NCBI GenBank assembly: GCA_032622095.1
Contig: CP136069.1
Coordinates: 206,266,750 to 206,330,749 of the forward strand
Direction: 5' to 3'
Length of the DNA stretch: 64,000 nt
Source: Siphonodentalium dalli
Taxonomy: Eukaryota; Mollusca; Scaphopoda; Gadilida; Siphonodentaliidae
Below are positions 3,657 through 24,920 of this stretch, one piece after another. Under the pieces are notes generated by a model, which saw only the letters and a list, made by a program, of their open reading frames with translations, did no database searches and was not told where the DNA came from. The first letter of the stretch is position 1. Each line of letters starts with the position of its first letter. The position numbers and the translations under genes were made by a program.

Positions 3657-4412
3657 CTAATAATTCCAAAAGTGCTGTTTTGCATTATTGATTTTATTGC
3701 TGATATGTTCTTCGAATTTAAGTTTGCTGTCAATCTCCACTCCAATGTCTCTCTCTAGTTTGGTTTCTGTTATTGCTTGTCTATTTCCTTGATTGACCAT
3801 TGTGTATTGAATATCTCTTGTGTCAGGATTAAACTGCAACAGCCACATTTCAGACCACTCGACCATCTTATCTATATAATCCTGTATGATCTGTCTATCG
3901 GAGTAATCTCTGATGCTCCTGTACAGTTTAGTGTCGTCTGCGTATAGCATCATATTTGATTTTGTTTCATCTGGGAGGTCGTTGATGTATATCACAAAAA
4001 GCAGCGGCCCCAATACACTTCCCTGTGTTATTCCACAAGTGACCATTCTGCTTGATGATTGAACATTGTTAATTGCCACTTTTTGTGATCTGTCTGATAG
4101 AAAGCCCAGGATCCATGTAATGATCTTCTCGTTTATGCCGTATTTTTTCAGTTTCTCTATTAGCCTCCTATGTGGGACCGTGTCAAATGCTTTCTTAAAG
4201 TCAAAGTAGATGACATCTATACATGTTGGTGTTTTATTATCCAGAGCTTCCGTCCATGCATCCAAGGTGTGTAGAAGTTGTAGTGTTGTGGATCTCCCAT
4301 TAATGAAGCCATATTGGTTGTCACTCAATAATTTGTTTTGATCAAGATGTGTTGTGATATGGCTTCTCATGATCTGTTCCATTATCTTGCATACAATACA
4401 TGTCAGGCTCAC
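3657..4412 (-). pseudogene. Reverse transcriptase domain of LINE A
   Basis: This 251-codon open stretch holds the palm and fingers of a LINE reverse transcriptase. Visible blocks in order are DNQYGFINGRST (fingers), YFDFKKAFDTVPH (motif A, first catalytic Asp), GITQGSVLGPLLFVIYINDL (motif B region) and MLYADDTKLY (motif C; the YADD codons are at 3,933-3,944). All three catalytic aspartates are present. The domain is out of frame with the upstream endonuclease/linker segments (4,409-5,327) and with the downstream C-terminal segment (3,350-3,745), so it could not be made as one protein. It would copy element RNA at a nicked genomic target. It is part of the parent element and not a host gene; the start methionine is arbitrary. 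Confidence 0.9.
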
Positions 4413-19420: not shown

Positions 19421-19619
19421 GCCGAAACCGGTATAGCTGTATGTACATACATGTAATAAATATTCAACAATGAACGGATACCTTTCTTAATTTTCAAACT
19501 ATTCCATTCTTCACGACAGCAATCACCTACCTCAGAGGAGAGTTTCTTCCTTGTTTAAAAAATATATATATATATATAAGTTCAAGTAATGATAAACATG
19601 ATGTAAAAAATAATCTAAT

Positions 19620-20398
19620 TTAATCTTGTAGTCTAGAGGCCTTTCGTGCATGATGCACTCATCAGTAGACATTATACAAACAAGAATTTCACTGTTTGTA
19701 ACTTCTCTCCATCTGTATGATGACGTCATAAAGCCTACGGGGACTAACTCCGAATTCCTTCCGCTGGGAACCAGCCAGTTTGACGTCATATTACGCGTTC
19801 AGCTTGGTGAATAGCGATCAATGAATCTATCTTCTTGAGATGTTCTATTGATAGTATCCCGTGTGAACATTTTGGAGAATGGAAATACAGTGAATTCCCC
19901 ATGTCCCCAATCGTCCAGATGTGCACTTAAGGGAATGTTTCTGTATTCTTTCTGCCTTATTTGCTGGCGATGAATGTGAATCCGTTCGCAAAGTTTATTT
20001 CCGGTCTGCTCAATATAATATTCTGAGCAGCCGCCGCATACGATGCAATACAAGATATTGCGTGTTTTGCATGACATGTCAGCATTAGGAAACAAATGAT
20101 TTCCATTTTTTAGATTCAGGATTGTCCTAGTTGATATGAGCCGACATGTTTTGCACCTAGAATCCCCGCTTTTACTAATGCGGGGATTCTCTTTATTTTA
20201 AGAAAATCTGGCTTGAGTCAGAAATCTTTTGAGGTTTTTAGGTTGCCTTCTGCTTGCCAGTATGTCGCCACGTTTAACCAGTGATCTCATTTTTGAACTT
20301 TTGTCTAGAATGGGTACTAGTTCTTTCGCGATCTGTGGCATATTTTGGTGGCGTGGCTTGTGTGTTGTTACAAACGGTATTGAGTCATCGTTTGTGCT

Positions 20399-20400
<2 letters not shown>
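19620..20400 (-). mobile_element. Penelope-like element, 3' fragment (linker + GIY-YIG nuclease + hammerhead)
   Basis: Minus-strand frame 20,434-19,799 carries IPFVTTHKP, then ILASRRQPKNLKRFL, then GDSRCKTCRLI, the usual linker between reverse transcriptase and nuclease in Penelope-like elements. The GIY-YIG-type domain follows: NILYCIVCGGCSEYYIEQT, with CERIHIHRQQ. The element would prime reverse transcription at nicks made by this nuclease. Defects: an in-frame TAA at about 20,198-20,200; YIE in place of the catalytic-core YIG; and no reverse transcriptase, since a (CA)n tract replaces it from 20,401. The 3' untranslated part contains a hammerhead ribozyme motif (separate entry). Clade not assigned. 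Confidence 0.85.
19624..19685 (-). ncRNA. Type I-like hammerhead ribozyme motif of the Penelope-like element
   Basis: Minus-strand RNA in order: stem I 5' strand GUCUA (19,666-19,670), core CUGAUGA (19,659-19,665), stem II GUGCA-UCA-UGCAC (19,646-19,658), GAAA (19,642-19,645), stem III self-complementary AGGCCU, cleavage triplet CUC, and stem I 3' strand UAGAC (19,631-19,635). Stem I resumes beyond an internal loop with UCUUGU (19,680-19,685) pairing with ACAAGA (19,624-19,629). All invariant core bases are present. Stem III has no loop, so cleavage would need a dimer, as reported for minimal hammerheads of Penelope-like elements. Only one copy is in the window. Confidence 0.75.
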
Positions 20401-20437
<37 letters not shown>

Positions 20438-21703: not shown

Positions 21704-22525
21704 ATTATTGTTTAGCTGACCAAGACTTATTTAATATAATTACTAGTTTTAATGTAGGCAATTTCACAATTTACTCAGACCATTGCCCTCTGTCGTGGAC
21801 AATGAAGATTAATAAACTTCGCTTTAATACTCCTGATGATAGAGAGTATAAACTCTCCGGTACCAGTAAAAGTAAAAAATCTGGGATATTAAGAATTAAA
21901 CAAATTCAAAAGAGCCTTGGATTGCCATAAAATAAATACATTCATGAATGATTCATACACAGCTGACCAATTTGGTGTTGACAAGCAGTTGATTCATTCA
22001 ATACTATTTTAATGTCAGCAGCTAAATCAACCATGAAAAAAACAGTGCATCTCGTGATAAAATATCATATACAAATCATCATAAATTGCCATACTCTTGT
22101 AGAGATCTTTCAAAGACTACCAAAAGGTTAGCCAGAGAAATGTATCAACATCCAAGGGATAAAACACTTCGCGTTAAATACTATTCTGCTCGAAAAGATC
22201 TGAAAAAGCAAATAAAATTATATATGAAGAAAACTAAGCAAGAGATTGTAGATAAAAAATTCTCTGAATGGCGGGAAAAGACCCAAAAACTTATTGGGAT
22301 CTTATTTCAAAACTACAAAATAAAGCATCAATAGAAACTTTTAATAACATTGATGGACCCACTTGGGTAGAGTACTTTAAACAATTACATCCATCAAACA
22401 ATAAAAGTACTAAACAAAACAAATCCAACTCAGAGTGCTAAAATATTCAATGAATTGTCATTTGCTATTAAAAATGAAGAAATTAGTGTGGCCATAAAAA
22501 ACTATCAAATAATAAAAGTAGTGGT

Positions 22526-23190
22526 TTGGACTGTATTTTAAACGAAATGCTAAGGTGTGGCTCTAGTGTTTTATTACCACTCTTGAATAAATTATTTAAC
22601 CTTATCCTCAATACAGGTGTTTATCCAAAATTATGGAGTTCCAGTATACTAAAACCAATTTTTAAAAGTGGAGGAAATTATAGAGGTATATCAATAATTA
22701 GCTGTGTTGGGAAGTTATTTGGGTCTATATTAAATGAGAGATTAATGAGATTCAGGGGAAAAAGTAAATCAGTATATCAGACTGGATTTGAAAAAGGTAA
22801 ATCACATATAGATAAGTATGTAATGAAAAAAAAGAGTATACAATCTGAGCCGCTATTTGTTTGTTTTATTGACTTAAAAAAAGCATTTGACAGTGTTTGG
22901 CGTGATGGACTTTTTAGAAAGATGTACAGCAACAACATCAGTTCTCAAGTAATCAATTTGATAAACAAGTATGTACAGTAACACTCAAACAGCTATAAAA
23001 CTACCAAATGGCTTAACAGAATTCATACCATCTTCTACTGGTGTGAGGAAGGGCTGTAATCTGAGTCCTACGTTATTTAATCTTTATGTAGATGATATTA
23101 AAGACATATTCAGTGGTCAATCTAAATTTGATTCCCATTCCCTCTTAAAAAACAAGTAAGTTGTCTAATGTATGCCGATGATCTTAATTA
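22526..23190 (+). pseudogene. Reverse transcriptase domain of LINE B
   Basis: The first open segment (22,526-22,981) has NYRGISIISCVGKLF (fingers) and FIDLKKAFDSVW (motif A). A second frame (22,971-23,159) gives TGVRKGCNLSPTLFNLYVDD (motif B region). A third frame gives SCLMYADDLN with YADD at 23,171-23,182 (motif C). The catalytic aspartates are therefore present but spread over three frames. It resembles the RT of LINEs with a GELGR(F/Y)P C-terminal block. Confidence 0.85.
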
Positions 23191-24920
23191 GTAGATCTCC
23201 TAAAGGTCTGAAAAATTGTTTAGGGAAAATTACTGTTCTCAGTGGTGTTTTGATGTTAACCCAAAAAAATCAAAAGTTATGCAAATTTCTAAAGAGGGTC
23301 AATTAAGTAAGGAATCATTTATGATGAACGGAACAGTTCTTGATTGTGTTCATGAATACAACTCGGTCTAACTATTTCCTCCACAGGCACTTTTTCAAAA
23401 GCAATTTATAATCTTAAAAACAAGGCCAATAAGGCAATATTTGCATTAAAACAGTGTGTTTTCAATAATAACTTACCTCCAAAATTAAGCTTAGAGCTTT
23501 TTGATAAAACTATTATACCTATTTTAACTTATGGTTGTGAAGTTTGGGGGTCTTACTGTGACAATATTGGTGACAGGTTAAATCCTACTTCCTTAACTAA
23601 TCACTATGATAAAGATGTATATGAAACATTAGCATTAAGATTCTACAACAATATATTGGGTATTAATTCAAAAGCATGCAACCTGGCAGCTATGGGTGAA
23701 CTAGGCCGGTTTCCAATTACATTTGACATTTGCAGACGTGTGAATACGGTATTTTTTCCGTTTATGTTGTAGTTCACATGACAGCCTCATTCATGAGGCA
23801 TATTTATGTAATCATAATGCTATAAATAAAGGGCAAATTACTTGGCTTACCAGTTTAAAAACAATCCTAATCAATTGTAATCTGGATGAAGTATGGCATA
23901 ACCAATATTCTAAAATGCCCAAAAAAACTGAGAATGAGATTATAAAGAATTTTAAATCATGTTTTGTTAATCAGTGGCAATGCCAAACAGCTAACTCAGA
24001 CAAACTCAAAAGAACATATGGTGTAATATAAAAAAGAATTTAAATTAGAACATTATCTATCTCAAATGAAACCGCAATGTAGACGGTCTTTGTCCAAAAT
24101 AAGGACAAGTGTTCCCTCATTACATATTGAAACTGGAAGACATAAGAGGCCAAATAAAACTGCGGAAGATAAAAGGACATTTAATGTATGTACAAAATTA
24201 CATTGAAGATGAACAACATCTAATGTTGTTTTGTAAAAAGTATTCATATGACAGGAACATTATGTTCAACTCATTAAATGATTCCATAACTGATTAATAA
24301 CATGTCTGATATTGAAAAGATGATATTAATCTTATCAAGTAATGATGCTGATATATGTATCATTGTTGAAATATTTATTAAAAAGATAATTGATCTCAGA
24401 GGTCATATTTGAAGCCCAGTGCATTTAAATGTGGTTAATGTGACAATTGGATAATTGTTACTAATACACGTTCACGTTTCAATGACTTTCTTTGTTTGTT
24501 TGTTTTTGTTTTGTTTTTTTGTGTTTTGTTTTTTTGTGTGTGCACATGTGTTTATCAACAAAAAAGAAACAATACAAAAAAACTAAAACAAAAAAAGAAA
24601 ACAAAAGTAAAGAGAAGGTGATATGACATTTATCAATCTAGATTTCCGACCACCTGTTACTCACATGTTACTGTATTTACATTTTACATTTCATTACGCT
24701 TTCATCATCATTGTTATTGTTATAATTGATAGCCAAATGTGATATGTATGTTTCGTCATGAATTATTAATAAAACTTCAAACTTCATATGTATATTACAT
24801 AATGCACATTATTGGAATCAAAACAGGCTGATACACATGTCTCTTAAAGTGATACATTTGCATGAAATGTTAATACGCATTTAGTAAATGTGGCTTCAAA
24901 ACAATGGGTTTGAAGATTAT

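Follow-up and report, generated by a model that had tools for sequence, protein, structure and literature searches.

The window analysed here, a stretch of 64,000 nucleotides from the genome of Siphonodentalium dalli, carries on its minus strand a truncated copy of a Penelope-like element (PLE), in the 3′ part of which a minimal hammerhead ribozyme is predicted (Table 1). The coding part survives as a 132-aa frame (19,802–20,197, stop codon 19801–19799), which resembles the C-terminal end of a 777-aa ORF, itself open, elsewhere in the genome (locus L035; 55% identity over 120 aa). No Pfam match was obtained with the 132-aa frame alone. The L035 ORF matched RVT_1 (2.8e-05), and a sister ORF of 787 aa (L036) matched RVT_1 (6.3e-06) as well as GIY-YIG in its C-terminal part (1.9e-04); the three matches lie under the Pfam curated cut-offs. 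PLEs are described as being made up of a reverse transcriptase (RT), a GIY-YIG endonuclease and direct and inverted pLTRs (PMC3846280; PMC11167929), and the identity to the L035 ORF together with these sub-threshold matches in relatives bears out the assignment to PLEs made in an earlier reading of the sequence alone. The same reading called the element truncated, which agrees with its in-frame stop (20200–20198) and with the element sequence ceasing at a CA repeat near 20,403; related copies align to 20403–19574 at most. Furthermore, the YIG of L035 is YIE in the window copy. The copy is hence a fossil in which the letters of the ribozyme are intact and the coding part is not.

The ribozyme lies directly after the GIY-YIG remnant, the placement expected for a pLTR or 3′ UTR hammerhead of a PLE that encodes an RT and a C-terminal GIY-YIG. 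It had been placed 110–180 bp after the frame; the interval first proposed (19624–19685) starts 113 nt and ends 175 nt past the stop codon, with stem I starting 128 nt past it. Non-LTR retrozymes are short non-coding tandem repeats (~150–450 bp) with a type I hammerhead; the window, with one such motif after a coding remnant, does not fit this description.

Two further features were noted in the window. A strong hairpin, AGAATCCCCGC...GCGGGGATTCT, lies at 20156–20203, in the frame just ahead of the GIY-YIG part, and gave several weak Rfam matches. On the plus strand, the frames at 22487–23772 are broken into pieces and contain, by eye, words resembling those of a reverse transcriptase (FIDLKKAFDSVWRDGL); they probably derive from a decayed non-LTR retrotransposon.

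Table 1. Features of the truncated element and its predicted ribozyme (window positions).
Feature	Position	Strand	Basis
Extent of truncated Penelope-like copy, 3′ end in TA-rich tail near 19,574	19574..20403	-	blastn against other copies, longest match query 798-1627
Remnant of stretch preceding the endonuclease, closed by in-frame stop 20200-20198; 5′ truncation at CA repeat	20198..20403	-	ORF list; copies align up to 20403
Remnant of C-terminal GIY-YIG endonuclease including stop codon	19799..20197	-	ORF; 55% identity over 120 aa to L035 ORF
Hairpin immediately 5′ of the ribozyme, TACAAACAG...CTTGTTTGTA	19675..19700	-	RAGATH-1 alignment; family pairing; minimum-energy fold of 82-nt segment
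Minimal type I hammerhead ribozyme, predicted (stem I, core, stem II, GAAA, palindromic AGGCCU, cleavage site)	19631..19670	-	sequence; out-of-family model R1; RAGATH-1 (19631-19698)
Stem I 5′ strand GTCTA, partner TAGAC 19635-19631	19666..19670	-	sequence; covariation between families
Catalytic core CTGATGA (C3 to A9)	19659..19665	-	sequence; genome-wide C3/G8 combinations
Stem II hairpin GTGCA-TCA-TGCAC	19646..19658	-	sequence; fold
GAAA	19645-19642	-	sequence
Self-complementary AGGCCU replacing stem III (A15.1 to U16.1), proposed dimer interface	19637..19642	-	sequence; in silico pairing
Expected cleavage site U16.1 C17 / U1.1, between 19636 and 19635	19635..19637	-	position in hammerhead fold

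Layout of the motif and the hairpin upstream

Read on the minus strand from 19,670 to 19,631, the elements are arranged as in a type I hammerhead, whose open ends belong to stem I, and a CUGANGA...GAAA...UH core with stems I and II is present, as judged from the letters and from an out-of-family model described below. Every component listed in the sequence-only reading (CUGAUGA, a 5-bp stem II with a 3-nt loop, GAAA, AGGCCU and the cleavage triplet) was found again in the minus-strand letters. Position numbers (C3, G8, 10.1, 15.1, 16.1, H17) follow the usual hammerhead scheme. The window copy has the standard C3-G8 and G10.1-C11.1. Within one strand, stem III amounts to the A15.1-U16.1 pair and the palindromic GGCC; between two strands, 6 bp are possible.

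Stem I had been read as resuming, perfectly paired, after an internal loop. The proximal helix GTCTA/TAGAC was upheld, being paired in 104 of 115 cells in the window's family of copies, but the distal helix TTGTA/TACAA was not. The latter needs a T at 19,630, and its closing A-T pair occurs in one of 22 copies, the window's own. Across the family copies the whole TTGTA/TACAA helix was paired in 86 of 114 cells and CTTGT/ACAAG in 110 of 115, and a hairpin immediately upstream (TACAAACAG/CTTGTTTGTA) was paired in 223 of 232, with a few changes preserving pairing. The Rfam model RAGATH-1 also has a 5′ hairpin at this position (19,700–19,675), and the minimum-energy fold of an 82-nt segment includes it; a shorter segment of 62 nt folds with the distal stem I in its place. 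Because the distal stem I needs a base peculiar to the window copy and the upstream hairpin is better kept, the hairpin is probably the better assignment of the two and the distal stem I probably a mis-assignment.

Models, pattern counts and copies of the window's family

A search of the whole window at Rfam gathering level gave no matches. Below that level, in a 2-kb neighbourhood, RAGATH-1-hammerhead (RF03152) reached 23.5 bits (E 0.51 over 4227 families) against a gathering score of 56.3, over a full-length alignment (model 1–77 of 77). The window motif and RAGATH-1 have in common a 5′ hairpin followed by stem I, CUGAUGAG, stem II and CGAAA; they differ in that the structure line of RAGATH-1 has a 9-bp stem III hairpin, and the score of the window is far under the gathering score. 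This score is a library threshold, not a defining biochemical feature, and RAGATH-1 expects the stem III hairpin. The same 23.5 bits were obtained for one other copy (L003), and the RAGATH-1 match was absent from the other loci searched. Hammerhead_3 (RF00008) matched neither this genome nor a single one of the 14 control genomes; with all controls empty, its search is uninformative.

Because RAGATH-1 expects a stem III hairpin, we built a covariance model (R1) from 13 hammerheads belonging to other families in this genome, with none from the window's family. R1 found 19,670–19,631 at 44.9 bits (E 1.4e-14 for the 64-kb window, the E-values of the tool being rough), and its next-best match in the window had 14.2 bits (62555–62534). 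This second place was rejected as a hammerhead; judged by eye it forms one arm of a near-perfect inverted repeat, and no GAAA follows it. R1 was also used to score loci that had supplied some of its training rows, where scores are high partly by construction; the window lies outside the training set. The covariance-model check proposed in the sequence-only reading gave no match at the Rfam gathering level; the out-of-family model did match. Genome-wide, the pattern CTGANGA-N8-24-GAAAGGCCTH had 515 matches in 2.23 Gb and the reversed pattern 5; among the matches listed, 36 rows belong to one satellite at C2:115.57-115.80 Mb. The lack of a gathering-level Rfam match is what might be expected of a chance resemblance, but neither the E-value from a model that never saw the window's family, rough as it is, nor the excess over the reversed pattern is compatible with one, and we give this explanation practically no weight. 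On these sequence comparisons we regard the predicted hammerhead as real.

A 231-bp query around the motif had at least 45 matches in the genome, of which 25 were cut out; the family alignment comprises 26 copies from 22 loci, after removal of identical rows, of matches shorter than about 120 nt and of three overlapping loci (L015, L021, L025). In these 26 copies the ribozyme columns had a mean majority of 0.918 compared with 0.942 for the rest, and the core did not differ from random columns (p 0.81). The first G of GGCC (position 190) was G in 62% of copies. By reading of rows, the catalytic letters were kept in 14 of the 23 copies spanning the motif, and there are copies with TGCC or AGCC in which the core is otherwise intact. 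Conservation of the core among related copies, by which the motif had been proposed to be judged, did not favour it, the ribozyme being no better kept than its flanks. We count this within-family test as uninformative rather than as support, because dead copies drift everywhere.

The absence of excess conservation is also what would be seen if the motif were a functionless relic that persists in dead copies through recent insertion. The truncated frame, the in-frame stop and the YIE for YIG fit such a relic, as does the report that insertion of an Anolis PLE in vitro did not need cleavage (PMC11167929). We consider this reading improbable for reasons that lie in other families, to which we turned because the within-family test says nothing.

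Complete elements were absent among the copies of the window's own family, where we saw only partial tandem and inverted arrangements: two direct copies 3.4 kb apart (L026), copies in the order plus, minus, plus (L027) and an inverted pair (L028). Among the copies listed, none ends at the cleavage site (query position 195). Most motif-spanning copies run ~60 nt further into the tail; one ends at 169 (L016) and one at 190 (L017). Four matches to the 231-bp query (C6:200814265, C6:212671024, C6:161677798, C7:144903637), outside the 25 that were cut out, end at position 171, inside CTGATGA, and these endings may be true ends, deletions or a diverged subfamily.

Covariation and core variants between families

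A query with the GIY-YIG part gave 150 scored places out of 2148 candidates, from which we picked 20 loci (L035–L054) so as to include long open frames and a range of identities. A hammerhead was found downstream, in sense, in 19 of these 20 loci. At two of them (L040, L041) the motif is partial, running only up to GAAA, where the element meets a TA repeat. No hammerhead was found downstream at L051, though its GIY-YIG groups beside copies of family F4 that have one. The palindrome read GGCC in 15 of the 20 loci, GGCT in one and GCC in one, while two end earlier and one has no motif. At L035 the motif occurs in both direct repeats (391–436 and 4094–4139, copies 95.7% identical), the second with a changed core, CTAAAGA.

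As a side observation, L040 and L041 pass into the TA repeat right after GAAA, and a sister (L042) continues through GGCCTC; the GAAA endpoint could possibly be a reverse-transcription start site inside the ribozyme. Matches to microRNA families at two loci (L057, L065) were discarded as they fall on inverted repeats.

The stems differ between families, with GTCTA/TAGAC, GTAAC/GTTAC, GTCAC/GTGAC, TGTAA/TTACA, ATTCC/GGAAT, TCGC/GCGA and others among the stem I and II variants. For a comparison between families we picked 14 representatives (11 family labels, some of them near relatives), or 13 without the window's family, from matches fitting YTGANRA...GAAAGGCCTH, omitting the C2:115.57-115.80 Mb satellite and any match that lacked a stem II. 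In the 13 other-family rows, 92.3% of 130 cells were standard pairs compared with 53.0% after shuffling (reached by 0 of 500 shuffles), percentages which, given this selection, describe hammerhead-like rows and not all pattern matches. Cells changed on both sides numbered 50 in these rows and 15.8 in shuffles (again 0 of 500), and pairing fell to 26–44% when partners were slid by 1 to 3 columns. Two further measures were weak: all 10 pairs showed change on both sides (8.1 in shuffles, reached by 52 of 500), and there were 21 further pair types (17.4, reached by 31 of 500). With the window's family included (14 rows), 141 of 154 cells were paired, the shuffled mean being 82.6.

Helices that pair through two-sided changes between families would not arise by drift, and the motif stands after the stop in 19 of the 20 chosen loci; both count against a mere relic. 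A relic is probably an apt description of the window copy but not of the lineage.

Three families (F8, F9, F10) have the core UUGAAAA, that is U3-A8 instead of C3-G8. With GGCC required, the genome held 515 C3-G8, 268 U3-A8, 25 C3-A8 and 32 U3-G8 matches, and the reversed-pattern controls gave 5, 25, 13 and 13 respectively. The U3-A8 loci (L037, L038, L043–L046, L054, L060, L064) mostly read UUGAAAA, one (L046) UUGAAAU. A stem II of at least 4 bp was present in 10 of the 25 C3-A8 matches (5 of these from one satellite array) and in 1 of the 32 U3-G8 matches; the single-change cores are not all noise. On a GIY-YIG tree of 29 rows (L066 was too short to be included) U3-A8 needs two changes. A single origin was not rejected by an AU test (p 0.128), and the FastTree drawing looked more decisive than is warranted. 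Furthermore, a U10.1-U11.1 mismatch is found at the base of stem II in F3, F4, F5 and F10.

Both the U3-A8 swap of F8–F10, described as rare, and the U10.1-U11.1 mismatch of F3, F4, F5 and F10 have been reported in natural hammerheads (PMC3088659, which also gives part of the position numbering). Compared with the variants as described there, those found here are in PLE copies, with about 240 U3-A8 matches above control.

Proposed cleavage as a dimer and comparison with known ribozymes

The helices of other families, the placement after GIY-YIG and the hundreds of like motifs lead us to read the window motif as a hammerhead. Very probably it is the 3′ (pLTR) hammerhead of a 5′-truncated, decayed PLE, proposed to cleave as a dimer. 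In the proposed mechanism, the minus-strand transcript would fold stems I and II around the CUGAUGA/GAAA core. A monomer would be unable to close a stable stem III, which has one A-U pair over GGCC, so a second copy would be needed: two copies, on one transcript or on two, would pair through AGGCCU into a shared 6-bp stem III, and the dimer would cut itself just 3′ of C17. Where a complete element has one ribozyme per direct pLTR, transcripts would be trimmed to unit length.

In silico, two AGGCCU strands pair with −9.1 kcal/mol and AUGCCU strands with −0.9 kcal/mol. In free co-folding of two 62-nt copies the AGGCCU dimer was not the optimum, and the dimer model is therefore argued from the literature and the palindrome. 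The loop-less stem III and the action as dimers that the sequence-only reading had ascribed to PLE hammerheads agree with the accounts in PMC7761336 and, for axolotl repeats, PMC7229834. PLE hammerheads are usually without helix III (PMC7761336; PMC6155905), and the minimal ones are said to occur in tandem and perhaps to self-cleave as dimers, their role being called still a mystery (PMC7761336).

The ribozyme might instead work, if at all, as a monomer, with A15.1-U16.1 as a one-pair stem III under a GGCC tetraloop, and with assistance from a protein of the element or from loop II contacts made by the upstream hairpin or a stem I bulge. Several observations would suit this arrangement, namely the hairpin kept in 223 of 232 cells with a counterpart in RAGATH-1, the TGCC and AGCC copies with otherwise intact cores, in which a dimer would be weak (AUGCCU above), and the report that cleavage by the Anolis PLE ribozyme needed protein (PMC11167929). 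We nevertheless think it unlikely, as GGCC is present in 15 of the 20 loci that were chosen by GIY-YIG alone, and axolotl ribozymes with a one-pair helix III and palindromic tetraloop are described as cleaving better as dimers (PMC7229834). GGCC is also present in all 13 rows of the between-family alignment, where the search pattern required it.

The arrangement of copies weighs against the dimer model. From 64 listed C3-G8 places (satellite rows dropped) and 100 listed U3-A8 places, we obtained 20 neighbouring hammerhead pairs within 5 kb, of which, among the matches listed, 16 were divergent, 2 on the same strand and 2 convergent, so that one transcript would often hold one sense ribozyme. 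The divergent pairing looks as if inverted pLTRs flank inserts.

Minimal type I hammerheads of PLEs are documented (Cervera & de la Peña 2014; Lünse, Weinberg & Breaker 2017, via PMC7761336 and PMC6155905). By these review descriptions, the hammerhead of the window is like them in its type I topology, in having no helix III beyond the conserved pair and in its place in the pLTR of a PLE with RT and GIY-YIG, as well as in the tandem or inverted pLTR copies and the proposed action as a dimer. Nothing categorical sets it apart; the window's family has the loop II TCA and the upstream hairpin. The retrozyme ribozyme HHR_Amex1 of axolotl also has a single-pair helix III capped by a palindromic tetraloop and cleaves better as a dimer, but as described in PMC7229834 its setting is small non-autonomous tandem repeats rather than a PLE, and it has loop 1–loop 2 contacts. 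Since U3-A8, U10.1-U11.1 and a palindromic tetraloop on a one-pair helix III have all been published, the hammerhead is ordinary for its class; no feature of the window is new in kind, and few of those found around it are. An identical family, for example with GAAAGGCCU, may possibly have been published already.

The genome nevertheless holds about ten divergent versions of one small ribozyme side by side. Their covariation, including the U3-A8 swap in three PLE families, makes them a natural set of cases for testing the dimer model and for asking why PLEs keep a ribozyme whose role is described as still a mystery (PMC7761336). A more speculative idea, to which we attach little credence, is that AGGCCU is a common dimer handle of divergent families (C3-G8 and U3-A8 cores, PLEs and a 436-bp satellite), such that RNAs of different families could pair with, cleave and perhaps co-mobilise each other, GGCC being kept for pairing across families rather than for each element alone.

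Two satellites with hammerhead-like motifs were also observed. At L062 (G000:C3:274680673-274683650) a tandem array with a period of 436 bp, its copies about 95–99% alike, has a minimal hammerhead per copy (TCGC/GCGA, AACGC..GCGTT, GAAAGGCCTA); it is retrozyme-like, with no GIY-YIG match in the stretch, and A8 with C3 retained is seen in 2 of 6. A 437-bp satellite at L063 (G000:C2:115581000-115583000) and across C2:115.57-115.80 Mb has a hammerhead-like core with poor stems. The two satellites have ~60 bp in common at 75–78% identity, at a like distance after the motif.
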